Origin: Candidatus Ozemibacter sibiricus
GTDB lineage: Bacteria; Muiribacteriota; Ozemobacteria; Ozemobacterales; Ozemobacteraceae
Length of the DNA: 64,000 nucleotides
NCBI GenBank assembly: GCA_003327425.1
Contig: QOQW01000015.1
Coordinates: 1 to 64,000 of the forward strand
Reading direction: 5' to 3'
Made by a program: the position numbers and the translations under genes. The notes beneath the pieces are model-generated. The model did no database searches. It saw nothing but the letters and a program-made list of their open reading frames with translations, and was not told where the DNA came from. Of this stretch, positions 31,939 to 40,912 are shown in pieces. Within the stretch, counting starts at the first letter, position 1; every line of letters starts with the position of its first letter.

Positions 31939-32829
31939 ATGATCCTCATCGAAAAGATCCTGTTCCTGAAGAGGATCAGCATTTTCCAGAGTTTGAGCAG
32001 CCAGGAACTGCGGATGATCGCGGAAGTGCTCAGCGATGAGGAATTCGCCGCGGGGGAAGTCCTGTTCAACGAGGGCGAGCCAGGCGAATGCATGTATCTG
32101 CTGGTCGAAGGGAAGATCTCGATCTATACCGGAGTGCCCCCCAAGACCAAGAACCTGGCCGTCTTCGAGCCCGGCGATTTCTTCGGGGAGATGGGCCTCT
32201 ACGACGACAAGCCCCGAGCCGCTTCGGCCATGGCCCGGGAGAATTCCCGCGTGCTGGTGCTGCACAAGACCGATTTCTGCGATCTCATCGCCGAATATCC
32301 CCCGGTCGCGCTGGGCATCATGAAAGAACTCAACCAGCGCCTGCGCGCCACCAACCTGAAGCTGACCTCGTTCGAGGGCAAGTTCATCGACAAGGCGACC
32401 CAGCTCTACACGCGAGATTATTTCAATGACTGCCTGGCCACCGAATTTTTGAAAGCGAAAAAAGATGCGCTGCCGTTGTCGTTCCTGGTGATCCGGGTGG
32501 TGCTGGGGCCGATGCGGGAACCCGATCCGCCCGCCGCGTTCCTGATCGACCAGTTGCTCTGCGACATCGGCCGGATCCTGACCCTCCACCAGCGCCCCAC
32601 CGACCTCGTCGCCCGCTTCGCCCAGGACAAAGTGGCCGTCCTGCTGGCCGAAGCCAGCCGCACCGGCGCCGAGTCGTTCCTGCGACGGGTCAAACGAGAC
32701 ATCGACAAGCACCAGATCATTTTCACCGAGACCAGGCATCTCGAGATCCAGATCCAGTTCATGATCTTCAACTTCCCCGAAGATACCCAGGAACGAGAGG
32801 CCATGTTGAGCCTCCTCGAGAAGTGCTGA
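31939..32829 (+). CDS. Cyclic-nucleotide-binding domain protein with degenerate GGDEF domain
   Basis: 296 aa. Residues about 12-130 are a CRP-type cNMP-binding fold: FQSLSSQELRMIAEVL, then the phosphate-binding cassette FGEMGLYDDKPRAASAMA. There is no helix-turn-helix. Residues about 150-285 follow the diguanylate-cyclase pattern: LYTRDYFND in place of LTGLYNRRYF, a long helix, and ARFAQDKVAVLLAEA where RYGGDEFAVLL is expected. The catalytic GG(D/E)EF is replaced by AQDKV, so cyclase activity should be lost and the domain may only bind nucleotide or mediate contacts. It starts 18 nt after the transporter-HEAT gene, so it is probably co-transcribed. Confidence 0.82.
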   Translation: MILIEKILFLKRISIFQSLSSQELRMIAEVLSDEEFAAGEVLFNEGEPGECMYLLVEGKISIYTGVPPKTKNLAVFEPGDFFGEMGLYDDKPRAASAMARENSRVLVLHKTDFCDLIAEYPPVALGIMKELNQRLRATNLKLTSFEGKFIDKATQLYTRDYFNDCLATEFLKAKKDALPLSFLVIRVVLGPMREPDPPAAFLIDQLLCDIGRILTLHQRPTDLVARFAQDKVAVLLAEASRTGAESFLRRVKRDIDKHQIIFTETRHLEIQIQFMIFNFPEDTQEREAMLSLLEKC

Positions 32830-35186: not shown

Positions 35187-35215
35187 TTGCAATTCCTGTT
35201 CTCTGCGACTATAAT
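35187..35215 (+). promoter_or_regulatory. Predicted sigma70 promoter for the GlyS-like gene
   Basis: TTGCAA (35187-35192), 17 nt spacer, TATAAT (35210-35215). The same hexamers and spacing occur at 60661-60689. The leader is about 32 nt and carries GAGGAGGT. Confidence 0.7.
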
Positions 35216-35252
35216 CCCCAGGATTCCGGGAACCCTCGGTTGAGGAGGTAGT

Positions 35253-37259
35253 GTGCCATCCAATCTATTGTTGGAGGCGGGATTCTGGGGTCTGCCCCCC
35301 GGTGTGGCCGGACGCGATCCCAAGGACATACCCGCCTGCATCGGCGAGCTTCTCGAAAAGGAGCGCCTGGGAACCGCCCGCATCCGGATCTGGTTCAGCG
35401 CCGCCCGGTTCGGAGTGCTGATCGAAGGACTGGCCGAAGCGCAAGCCGAAGTGACGACAGAAGTCAGAGGGCCCCGCGCCAGCCAGGCCTTCGACATCAA
35501 CCGGGTTCCGACCCCGGCGGCGACCGGGTTCGCCAATTCCCAGGGAGTGAGCATCAAGGATCTGGTCGTCCGAGAGGTCGACGGCGAAGCGTTCGTCTTC
35601 GCCCGGAAACTGCAGCCTGGCGGCCAGTTGGTGCATCTGCTGCCCCGGTTGGTGCCGTTGATTCTCGCCTCTCCAGCCTGGCGGGTCCCTCCCTGGAAGG
35701 CCGATGCGGCCCTGCCGCAACCTCCCGCCTACGTCTGCCTGTTGCTCGACGAGAAGGTGCCGACGTTTTCCGTGGAGGGGGTGCCGGCCGGCCGTGAGAT
35801 CGGGCTCCGCGAGGGGTTGACGTTCCGGCTGGTCCCGCTGGAGCGCCCGACCGACTATCCGAAAATCATGACCGACTGGGGCATCCTGCCCCTCCCGGTC
35901 GATCGGCAGAAGCGGCTGGAATCGGACATTCAGGCCGCCGTGTCGACCCTGGGAACGGCCCGCAAAGATAAGGCCCTCCTCGAGACGATCGCCTTCGAAC
36001 TGGAGAAGTCTTTTCCGTTCCTGCTCGACACCCCTCCCGAACTCCTCAGCCTGCCCACCGATCTGGCCCTCGAACTGCTCGCTCAGCCGCCTTCCTACAT
36101 TCCCTGCGAGAATGCCAAGGGCGAATGGTCTGGCACCTCCCTCGTCGGCATCAGCCCGTTTCGTCCGCCGAGTTCCGCCGAAGTGGCCGTGCGAGCCTCC
36201 GACCTGCGACGACGGATCGGAGCCCTGCGCAAAACCTGGCTCCAGGATGTGGAAAAACCTCTGGCCGACCGGGTCAACGATCTGAAGGCCCGCCCATCCC
36301 CAGACGGAATCGGAAGCCTCCACGATCATGCCCTGCGCGTCGCTCGTCGGGCCGGTCTCTTGAATCGCCTCCTGAACTGGAATGTCCCGGCCCCCCTTCT
36401 GGAAAAAGGAGTCATGTATTTTGCGGCCGGTCGGGCGATGGCCGTGGCCGAGCGCCTTCCGAGCCTCGCCCCGCGGCTGCCGCCGCTGGTCGCCGAAGCC
36501 CAGGCCGTCGAACCAGCATTGGTGGCGCTTCTCAAAGAGGTCGCTGCCTGCTGGGAGCCCAAAAGCAGCCTGCCGACCACCCCCACCGCCACGCTGATCC
36601 TGTTGGCCTGGCTCCTCAACCGGAGCCTGCCCGGCTCGCCCACCCGCGAAATCTCCCAGGAACGGATCCTGCACCTGCTCTGTTCCCGTGAGATCCGGCT
36701 CGATCTGGCCCGGTGCTTCACCCTCGAAGAAGATCCCCAGCCATTCGATGCCGAACCCTGGCGGGCCCTGGTCGAGAAACGCCTGCAAAAAGAAGGCATT
36801 TCGCGGGAGAAAGGGGAATGGCTGCTGCGGCAGCCTGGCCTTGACCCCGTGTCCCTTTTGCAAGCCTTGCGGGCCTGGCCCCAAGGCCCGCCGCCCGGGA
36901 TGGCGACCCTGGCCGCGCTCCGGAACCGGATCCGCTACCGGCTGCAGCAGGTCAAGATCGAATCGCTTCGGCTGACCGACGAGGGAGTGGCCTTCGCGTC
37001 CCTTGAACAGAAAGTCGCGGCCATGGAAGCGATGCCGACGGGAGCCTGGCCGGCCCTCTATGACAAACTGATGGAGGGAGTCGCCGAGATCGAGGTCGCC
37101 ATCAACAGTCTGCCTCCCGTCATCGATGAGACCTCTTCCCCCCTGGCCGGTCTCCTACGGCTGCTGCAGCGCGTCGCCACCCAGCTCGATCGCCTTCCCT
37201 ACCCTGAAGGGGGCGCGACGGCCTCGCCCCCGGCGAATGGGGCTCCGGCGGCGCCATGA
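35253..37259 (+). CDS. Divergent glycyl-tRNA synthetase beta-subunit homologue
   Basis: 668 aa, close to GlyS length (about 690), GTG start with SD GAGGAGGT. The whole GlyS architecture can be followed: an N-terminal strand LLLEAGFWGLPPG, the pattern RGPRASQAFDINRVPTPAAT then GFANSQGVS, YPKIMTDWG, SLPTDLALELL, LPTTPTATLILLAWLL, and the C-terminal helical anticodon-binding-like region. Yet the hallmark motifs are missing. IGTEELP has become AGFWGLP, the MRWG...RP segment is lost, the HD-like ADL..MVGEFPELQG stretch is unrecognisable, and GS.DPFALRR is absent. No alpha subunit gene (glyQ) is in the window. It is either an extremely diverged functional subunit or a repurposed paralogue. Confidence 0.75.
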   Translation: MPSNLLLEAGFWGLPPGVAGRDPKDIPACIGELLEKERLGTARIRIWFSAARFGVLIEGLAEAQAEVTTEVRGPRASQAFDINRVPTPAATGFANSQGVSIKDLVVREVDGEAFVFARKLQPGGQLVHLLPRLVPLILASPAWRVPPWKADAALPQPPAYVCLLLDEKVPTFSVEGVPAGREIGLREGLTFRLVPLERPTDYPKIMTDWGILPLPVDRQKRLESDIQAAVSTLGTARKDKALLETIAFELEKSFPFLLDTPPELLSLPTDLALELLAQPPSYIPCENAKGEWSGTSLVGISPFRPPSSAEVAVRASDLRRRIGALRKTWLQDVEKPLADRVNDLKARPSPDGIGSLHDHALRVARRAGLLNRLLNWNVPAPLLEKGVMYFAAGRAMAVAERLPSLAPRLPPLVAEAQAVEPALVALLKEVAACWEPKSSLPTTPTATLILLAWLLNRSLPGSPTREISQERILHLLCSREIRLDLARCFTLEEDPQPFDAEPWRALVEKRLQKEGISREKGEWLLRQPGLDPVSLLQALRAWPQGPPPGMATLAALRNRIRYRLQQVKIESLRLTDEGVAFASLEQKVAAMEAMPTGAWPALYDKLMEGVAEIEVAINSLPPVIDETSSPLAGLLRLLQRVATQLDRLPYPEGGATASPPANGAPAAP

Positions 37260-37325: not shown

Positions 37326-39821
37326 ATGGACACCAACGATTCCCGCGCCAATTCACCGACTGATCCCCCCGCCACCCCCCCCGCCGCTTCGGGGGCCACT
37401 GCGGTTCATCCGTTGCTCCCACTGCGGGATGTAGTCGTCTTCCCCTACATGGTCGTCCCTCTCTTCGTCGGCCGGAAAAAATCGATCCGGGCCATCGAAG
37501 AGGCCATGATGAAAGACCGCAAGATCATCCTGTGCTCGCAGAAACAACCCAAGATCGACGACCCGACGATGGGCGACCTCTACGAGACCGGCACCATCGC
37601 CGAGATTCTGCAGCTTTTGAAACTGCCCGACGGCATCCTCAAGATCCTGGTCGAAGGAACGACCCGGGTCAAGATCAAGGCCTTCACCAAGACCGAGGAA
37701 TTCTTCGAGGTGCAGGTGACCGAGGTCGTGGTCGCCGATGTGAAGACGATCGAGATGCAGGCCTTGATGCGCAACGTCATCAGCCTGTTCGAGCAGTATG
37801 TCAAGATCAACAAGAAGATCCCGCTCGAAGTGATCATGGTCGCCAACAACGTCGACGAACCGGGTCGGCTGGCCGACATCATCACCGCCCACCTGACCCT
37901 CAAGGTCGAAGAGAAACAGGAGATCCTCGAAGCCTTCGATCCCAAGGTCCGCCTCGAGAAGATCGCGACCATCCTGAACCGCGAACTCGAGATCATGATG
38001 GTCGAGAAGAAGATCCGCGGCCAGGTGCGCAAGCAGATGGAGCAGATCCAGAAGGAGTACTATCTGCGCGAGCAGATGAAGGCCATCCAGAAGGAGCTGG
38101 GCGAAGGCGAGGAACGCGGCGAGGAGATCGAAGAGCTGAAGGAAGCGGTCGCCAAGGCCAAGATGCCCGAAGATGCCCGCACCAAAGCCGAGAAGGAGAT
38201 CGCCAAGCTGGCCAAGATGCCGCCCGGCTCGGCCGAGGCGACCGTCTCGCGCAACTACATCGACTGGCTGGTCTCGCTGCCCTGGTCGAAGGCTTCCAAA
38301 GACCGGATCGACCTCGAGAAATCGGAAAGCATCCTGGAGAAAGACCATTACGGGCTCAAGAAGGTCAAAGAGCGCATCCTCGAATATCTGGCCGTCTGCC
38401 GTCTGAAGAAATCGATCAAAGGCCCGATCCTGTGCCTGATCGGCCCGCCGGGCGTCGGCAAGACCAGCCTGGGCAAATCGATCGCCCGCTCGCTCAACCG
38501 CAAGTTCGCCCGCATCTCGCTGGGCGGCATGCGCGATGAGGCCGAGATCCGCGGGCACCGGCGCACCTACATCGGCGCCATGCCCGGCCGCATCATCCAG
38601 GCCTTGCGCGATACCGGCACCAAGAACCCCGTCATCCTGCTCGACGAGATCGACAAGATGGGCATGGACTTCCGGGGCGACCCCAGCGCGGCGCTGCTGG
38701 AAGCGCTCGATCCCGAGCAGAACCACAGCTTCAGCGACCACTACATCTCGACCCCGTTCGACCTGTCGAAGGTGCTGTTCCTGACGACGGCCAATGTGCC
38801 GCACACCATTCCGCCAGCGCTGAAAGATCGCCTCGAGATCGTGTTCCTGCCCGGATACACCGAAGACGAGAAAGTCGAGATCGCCAAGCGGTACCTGATC
38901 CCCAAGCAGCTCGAATCGAACGGCGTCAAAAAGTACAAGGTCACGATCGAGGAATCGGCCATCCGCAAGATCATCCGCGAATACACCCGGGAATCGGGGG
39001 TCCGCAACCTCGAACGCGAACTGGCTTCGGTCTGTCGCAAAATCGCTCGTCAGATCGTCACCGAGAGCAAGGAGAAATCGGAAGAACAGCTCCGACAGAA
39101 GTTCGAGGCCAATCCTCTGATCATCGATGACAAGAAGGTCGAATCCTATCTCGGCGTCCCGACCTACCACACCGACAAGAAGGAAGAACAGGATGAAATC
39201 GGGGTCGCGACCGGCCTCGCCTGGACGGAAGTAGGCGGCACCATCCTGCCGATCGAAGCGGCGGTCATGCCGGGCCGCGGCAAGATCATCCTGACCGGCT
39301 CGCTGGGCAACGTCATGAAGGAATCGGCGCATGCCAGCCTGTCCTTCTTGCGGTCCCGGGCGGCGCAACTCAAGATGCGCCCCATCGATTACGACAAGAT
39401 CGACCTCCACATCCACTTCCCCGAGGGCGGGGTGCCCAAGGATGGCCCCTCCGCCGGCATCGCCATCACCACCGCCATCTATTCCGCCCTCAATGAGGTA
39501 CCGGTCAGCCGCGATGTGGCCATGACCGGGGAGATCACCCTGCGAGGCAAGGTGCTGCCGGTCGGCGGCATCAAAGAAAAGCTGCTGGCCGCGCACCGCA
39601 ACAACATCACCACGGTCATCCTGTCCGAGGAGAATGAGAAAGACCTGTCAGAAATCCCCGAAGAGATCCGCAAAGCCATGACCATCCACCGGGTGAAGAA
39701 CTGGGAGGAGGTCATGAAGCTGGCCTTGAAAGGGGAGCCCAAAACCACCCCCCTGCGCTTCCCCAACTACCCCTTCGACAAGCCGGCCGCCCGGAAAGCG
39801 GCGCGCAAGGCCCGCTCCTGA
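37326..39821 (+). CDS. lon: ATP-dependent protease Lon
   Basis: 831 aa, standard. The N-terminal substrate domain opens [20 protein letters not shown], and a coiled coil covers about 190-290. The AAA+ module has Walker A GPPGVGKT (373-380) and an intact Walker B (VILLDEIDK). The protease domain has the catalytic Ser709 in DGPSAGIA and the GGIKEK lysine near 750. It degrades misfolded and regulatory proteins in the cytosol. SD GAGGAAGG before ATG 37326. The next gene, engB, follows after 14 nt, a common lon-engB pairing. An extra Pro/Ala-rich 25 residues precede the conserved start. Confidence 0.97.
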
Positions 39822-39835
39822 ACCGACCGCTCGCC

Positions 39836-40908
<1,073 letters not shown>

Positions 40909-40912
<4 letters not shown>

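Follow-up and report, generated by a model that had tools for sequence, protein, structure and literature searches.

An orphaned glycyl-tRNA synthetase beta subunit in Ozemobacteraceae, possibly repurposed as a stand-alone RNA-binding protein

A beta subunit without its catalytic partner

The stretch of 64,000 nucleotides analyzed here (the window) carries a gene descended from that of GlyS, the beta subunit of glycyl-tRNA synthetase (GlyRS), in a genome that has no gene for the catalytic alpha subunit, glyQ. This orphan is almost certainly the ancestral glyS, which stayed where it was when glyQ disappeared. We put at roughly 55% the reading in which the abandoned subunit was exapted as a stand-alone protein that binds tRNA or another structured RNA. 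That the orphan has a real function other than that of a GlyRS is very probable; that this function is tRNA or structured-RNA binding is a more tentative claim, held at somewhat less than even odds.

The orphan is an intact descendant of GlyS

The open reading frame at positions 35253 to 37259 (plus strand) encodes 668 amino acids from a GTG start and is open throughout by a reading-frame check. A Shine-Dalgarno sequence, GGAGG (in AGGAGG), lies at 35243 to 35247 on the same strand, about 5 nt 5′ of the start, and a predicted sigma-70-like promoter, TTGCAA-17-TATAAT, at 35187 to 35215 (plus strand). The promoter is a consensus match only, with 10 of 12 positions agreeing (1 such site found compared to 0.1 expected). 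The undamaged frame, ribosome-binding site, and promoter described in an earlier, sequence-only reading are thus all present, the last as a prediction. Most orphan relatives also have an SD-like GGAG, often with TTG as the aligned start. The aligned start is TTG or GTG in 11 of 16 orphan genes (window 35253; L013-L059) and ATG in the canonical glyS of sister families; the non-ATG starts may imply low translation. No Rfam family was found in the window.

The proposed GlyS-like identity was confirmed by PF02092 (GlyRS beta), which matched residues 5 to 452 with an E value of 1.7e-35 and 123.4 bits against a curated cut-off of 29.2, and by PDB 7lu4, the best match among solved GlyRS chains (1.5e-21). 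The frame is therefore a real GlyS descendant. Its score with the NCBIfam GlyS equivalog TIGR00211, however, was 118 bits, below the cut-off of 300. An AlphaFold2 model, for which the input was the window protein and related-locus sequences only, had a mean pLDDT of 87.8 and a pTM of 0.69. When this model was searched against the PDB with Foldseek, the only strong matches were GlyRS beta chains, with E values down to 5e-29, mostly spanning about 700 columns and with TM scores up to 0.69 (normalized to the query). The orphan is thus confidently predicted to keep the five-domain beta-subunit fold over its full length, in line with the sequence-only reading that the fold was kept. CCA-adding enzymes appeared as weak matches (E about 0.01; about 130 aligned columns; TM 0.1 to 0.2). 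The B1-B2 part of Escherichia coli GlyS is known to resemble the body and tail of the archaeal class I CCA-adding enzyme (PMC8464048), but the orphan lacks the catalytic head domain of that enzyme and the likeness covers only those columns.

Synthetase residues are lost, and the tRNA-elbow domain is kept

The orphan has the domain order B1-B2-B1-B3-HD-ABD of GlyS from heterotetrameric GlyRS (PF02092/TIGR00211; E. coli 7eiv and 7yse; fused 7lu4). With domain borders taken from E. coli (PMC8464048), 17 canonical GlyS sequences were compared with 15 orphans, and the picture of residue retention was the same under three alignment methods. Canonical invariants retained in the majority of orphans numbered 5 of 11 in B1, 3 of 3 in B2, 4 of 18 in B3, 3 of 30 in HD, and 5 of 10 in the anticodon-binding domain (ABD). 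All domain coordinates below are on the plus strand.

First, B1 is partly retained. Its two parts, placed by alignment to the E. coli domains, lie at 35253 to 35447 (residues about 1 to 65) and 35619 to 35888. The IGTEELP segment has lost the second E of EELP but keeps E9 and P16; M148 and R149 of MRW are gone, but W150 remains in 15/15 orphans; and R159 of the RP segment is Q in 14/15 whereas P160 is kept. Second, B2 (35448 to 35618, residues about 66 to 122; RGPRASQAFD...PTPAATGFANSQG) is retained as a whole. This domain binds the tRNA elbow in E. coli GlyRS, and its deletion there abolishes the visible GlyRS-tRNA complex (PMC8464048). The blocks RGPRASQAFD and GFANSQGVS both belong to B2, and LPTTPTA aligns with LPSNPVA of E. 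coli; all three had been singled out as conserved, and all are present. Third, in B3 (35889 to 36265), which carries the beta residues on the ATP-site side, D329 is lost in all 15 orphans and R326 is kept in 7, including the window protein; in E. coli these two residues shape the ATP site (PMC8464048).

Fourth, the heaviest losses are in HD (36266 to 36812). The loop H18-H19 (E. coli 471 to 482; G473, D476, R481, R482) has been deleted or replaced in almost every orphan, the window protein among them, and R481 and R482 are absent from nearly all. The cavity residues K364, R367, K394, D456, and D459 and the CCA contact Q409 are nearly all replaced, with an R at 367 in the window protein. In E. 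coli, the loop with R481/R482 reads the acceptor stem and Q409 holds C74 (PMC9908026). The reported replacement of the PELQG stretch (Q409 of its QG) and of DPFALRR (the loop) is thus borne out. Finally, the ABD (36813 to 37256) keeps the equivalent of Arg585, which in canonical GlyS contacts C36 of tRNA-Gly, in 14/15 orphans (R559 in the window protein). The loop 652 to 658 is rewritten: F652, V655, and M658, whose contacts are through the backbone, are replaced, and a motif of NLPPVLD type, specific to the orphan family, stands where canonical GlyS has one of DKVMVM type.

The claim that every signature motif had been lost was therefore overstated. The listed losses are real, but the elbow-binding B2 domain, W150 and P160 of B1, and Arg585 of the ABD are retained. 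Compared to canonical GlyS, the orphan shares the predicted full-length fold, the glyQ-glyS-lon-engB site, and the B2 motif RGP...GF, but lacks the acceptor-stem loop, the HD cavity residues, and the ATP-side Asp of B3, has its constraint on B2, and has no alpha subunit in its genome.

Glycine charging is served by an alpha2 GlyRS

The host genome (Candidatus Ozemobacteraceae, Riflebacteria) is 98% complete. Profile searches of the whole genome gave one PF02092 match, the orphan alone, and no match to glyQ (PF02091). A standard alpha2 GlyRS with a class II core and an HGTP anticodon domain is encoded on another contig (473.6 bits, 468 aa), and the genome has three normal tRNA-Gly genes (GCC, TCC, CCC). 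All three (L130, L133, L134) have U73, although the sole GlyRS is of the alpha2 type; one passage in the literature has alpha2 GlyRS often pairing with A73 (PMC3990555). In the alpha2 GlyRS of this family (G000:C2:19261-20637; L002-L004, L161), the middle part of TIGR00389 (about 277 to 338) matched with an E value of about 1e-10, compared to a much stronger 1e-22 or so in the enzymes of families f4 to f7. Either the middle domain has diverged or the gene was acquired separately, to judge by these profile matches.

The same pattern extends across the family. Among 40 Riflebacteria genomes examined, 24 belong to the window's family (Ozemobacteraceae), many of them more than 90% complete. The orphan was found in 17 of the 24, in eight genera, and alpha2 GlyRS above the cut-off in 22. 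glyQ was found in none of the 24 by a PF02091 search that does detect it in sister families and controls, so a hidden glyQ was ruled out. Families f2, f3, and f8 have canonical GlyS (498 to 621 bits) without alpha2 GlyRS, and glyQ in every genome except the fragmented G002. Families f4 to f7 have alpha2 GlyRS without either subunit of the old enzyme.

These results bear on whether the orphan is a working, if extreme, beta subunit whose alpha partner escaped detection. The predicted full-length beta fold would suit such a protein. However, glyQ is missing from all 24 family genomes, a replacement enzyme is present, and the residues through which beta is coupled to alpha, to ATP, and to the acceptor end have been lost, which makes this explanation hardly credible. 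Of the features that would mark a simply divergent GlyS, one was found, namely that the orphan is the only glyS in the genome; on the other hand, no normal glyQ lies beside it or co-evolves with it, and its relatives do not show ordinary beta-subunit conservation. Charging by the old route can be excluded with good confidence because the catalytic subunit is absent, a replacement enzyme is present, and the acceptor and ATP-side contacts are lost.

Seven family genomes have no orphan. In four of them (G005, G009, G015, G018), lon or its upstream flank is missing from the assembly and the assemblies are only 64 to 70% complete, so these absences were not accepted as real losses. The other three form genus g10, in which lon is kept, other genes lie upstream of it, and the orphan is cleanly deleted. 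g10 is the only real loss within the family, and the orphan is dispensable at least there. This deletion also bears on whether the orphan is an accessory subunit of alpha2 GlyRS that holds tRNA-Gly in trans. The two proteins co-occur in the family, and the kept Arg585 equivalent would fit contact with tRNA-Gly. But g10 lacks the orphan although its alpha2 GlyRS is of the same type, the sister families f5 to f7 rely on alpha2 GlyRS without an orphan, and in other organisms alpha2 GlyRS needs no helper. An accessory role is therefore improbable.

Outside the phylum, the orphan profile gave about 200 matches among 382 genomes of many phyla, all with canonical-type scores, the best being 242 bits compared to 414 to 967 bits for orphans; the orphan state was not seen in any of these roughly 200 GlyS-bearing genomes. 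Only three (G158, G340, G352) had glyS without a glyQ match. Since their GlyS is canonical (554 to 674 bits), this is probably an assembly gap and not orphaning. A contig scan with two peptide patterns, which reach near relatives only, found nothing beyond the window's family; the named relatives were mostly Candidatus Riflebacteria or Ozemobacteraceae assemblies, with a few records under other names. Viral contigs scanned with canonical GlyS yielded nothing. The census is a sample of genomes, and the family is known solely from assemblies of uncultured organisms. In the full text of open-licence papers, the mutual replacement of the two GlyRS forms is recounted (PMC4427996), and no description of an orphan GlyS was found. 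A separate observation concerns a plasmid of Streptomyces sp. NBC_01727 (L123:2056-5064), on which a GlyRS of about 1000 aa is encoded. Its second half is of the GlyS beta-subunit type, so the enzyme is apparently an alpha-beta fusion, in an organism from which one would expect alpha2 GlyRS.

The orphan stands in the ancestral glyS position

The orphan is followed directly by the lon protease gene (37326 to 39821, plus strand) and then by the engB/ysxC GTPase gene (39836 to 40912, plus strand; TIGR03598), without glyQ, as the sequence-only reading had it. In the family, lon lies directly 3′ of the orphan wherever the flank is assembled, followed by engB where the contig reaches. This is not a new association, however, because canonical glyS occupies the same place before lon in families f2, f3, and f8, where lon is the ancestral downstream neighbor and engB the next gene in order; in f2 and f8 glyQ precedes glyS. 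This makes the orphan a glyS that has stayed where the ancestral operon had it. All 15 complete orphans group together in the GlyS tree as a single clade (support 100/100); synteny and the tree rule out a recent gene transfer or a paralogue. In the lon tree, the window's family is sister to f5 to f7, so the change to alpha2 GlyRS may be older than the divergence of the two, with glyS then perhaps surviving in the one lineage and disappearing from the other. On that tree g10 falls within the family, and its lack of the orphan is thus one later loss.

The constant neighborhood raises the question of whether the orphan serves Lon or is co-regulated with it, for example as an RNA-linked protease adaptor. 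It adjoins lon in every copy with an assembled flank, but so does canonical glyS in sister families, and g10 keeps lon without the orphan. Because the gene order is inherited, adjacency says nothing about function; a functional link drawn from it was rejected, and such a role is very unlikely.

Two features of the neighborhood were observed in passing. EngB/YsxC (window 39836-40912; L060-L074, L099) has a long, low-complexity, mostly basic C-terminal tail of about 85 to 240 aa after residue 180, rich in G, R, P, Q, and N, in every relative checked, including g10; the 175-aa protein of the f3 relative G003 has no tail. At window 31939-32829, a cyclic-nucleotide-binding domain is fused to GGDEF, and most members of the family share this gene upstream of the orphan.

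Selection is purifying and its focus has shifted to B2

The complete orphan copies comprise 15 intact frames of 645 to 684 aa in eight genera. Their dN/dS ratios were estimated by NG86, in which values at dS above about 1 are rough. In the window's genus, the closest pair had a ratio of 0.126; in g11, four genomes gave 0.063 to 0.088 and a wider pair 0.143. Among still wider pairs, G000-G016 gave 0.34 and another was saturated. Canonical glyS gave 0.029 to 0.051. In the pair G000-G017, the ratio was 0.070 for lon and 0.253 for the upstream TMEM260-like gene. In these terms, the rate of the orphan is two to three times that of canonical glyS. Selection on it is therefore purifying but looser than on a working GlyS. 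The claim that the gene is under selection holds in the closer pairs (0.063 to 0.143), and the comparison of substitution rates among the lineage's homologues, which the sequence-only reading had called for, places the orphan above canonical glyS. A pseudogene is ruled out by the intact frames and the dN/dS values.

The distribution of constraint within the protein has changed as well. The mean pairwise identity among orphans is 0.556 in B2 compared to 0.324 overall, making B2 the most conserved part of the family. Within canonical GlyS, in contrast, B2 identity is below average (0.299 compared to 0.330 overall). None of 20,000 random column sets was as conserved as orphan B2, a figure that serves as a guide only since columns are not independent. 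To judge from these alignments, constraint has moved: the synthetase residues of HD and B3 are released, and B2 is now the most constrained part.

Two further explanations are weighed by these data. One is that the gene is a relic in slow decay and does little or nothing. It evolves under weaker constraint than canonical glyS, most HD and B3 invariants are lost, and one genus has deleted it, all of which point that way. However, frames remain intact in all 15 complete copies across eight genera, dN/dS is well under 1 in the closer pairs, about 30 columns are invariant across the family, and constraint has risen specifically in B2, so that decay is more doubtful still than an accessory role. 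The other is that the conserved B1-B2 surface binds one or more proteins, possibly a translation or proteostasis factor, instead of RNA. The conservation of B1-B2 is silent on what is bound, and B1, which keeps W150 and P160, is largely an alpha-contact domain in canonical GlyS (PMC8464048). Yet the kept patch is the elbow-binding B2 and not the ATP-side residues of B3, where D329 is lost. Protein binding is unlikely on this evidence, although of all the alternatives it is the least so.

What the orphan may do

In the favored explanation, exaptation as an RNA-binding protein, the ancestral Riflebacteria glyS still occupies its old position in the glyQ-glyS-lon-engB operon. Glycine charging passed to an alpha2 GlyRS and glyQ disappeared, leaving the beta subunit without a catalytic partner. 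The whole fold is predicted to be retained, and selection acts mainly on the N-terminal B1-B2 and some of the ABD, while the HD and B3 surfaces that once served alpha, ATP, and the acceptor end are released. The resulting non-catalytic protein may grip a tRNA or tRNA-shaped RNA at the elbow via B2, perhaps helped by the ABD, with the tRNA 3′ end left free. Candidate roles are a tRNA chaperone, store, or quality-control factor; the RNA binding itself, the RNA target, and the cellular role are our inference.

Several observations argue for repurposing, which the sequence-only reading had raised: glyQ is absent, alpha2 GlyRS is present, synthetase-specific residues are lost, and purifying selection acts on a different part of the protein. 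A stand-alone binder of tRNA or structured RNA is favored because selection keeps the fold, B2, and part of the ABD. We count against it the g10 deletion, dN/dS values above those of canonical glyS (0.34 for G000-G016), a protein that is not noticeably basic (nor, by net charge, is canonical GlyS, which makes this comparison uninformative), and a B2 patch that may bind protein.

Pieces or paralogues of synthetases that work without charging activity are familiar from HisZ, the YbaK/ProXp editing domains, and tRNA binders of the Arc1p/Trbp111 type, and the orphan resembles them in this respect. To our knowledge, none of these is a heterotetramer's tRNA-binding subunit that stayed in its own operon when the catalytic subunit disappeared. 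Subunit orphaning could have given rise to a new protein family, known to date from Ozemobacteraceae alone, that binds the tRNA elbow or structured RNA and is unconnected to glycine charging; we hold this at a little under even odds.

Across bacteria, two unrelated forms of GlyRS have replaced each other, a classic case of its kind. In this family the exchange is seen frozen part-way, with the catalytic half gone and the tRNA-recognition half in place under a new pattern of selection. There is also a warning for annotation, as pipelines may call the orphan glyS or infer a heterotetrameric GlyRS that the organism does not have. The family offers a natural experiment that asks which portion of the beta subunit can function by itself, and suspected extra functions of the beta subunit could be tested with a protein unable to aminoacylate by the old route. 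That the tRNA-gripping half has been kept in at least eight genera suggests that it has a new job.
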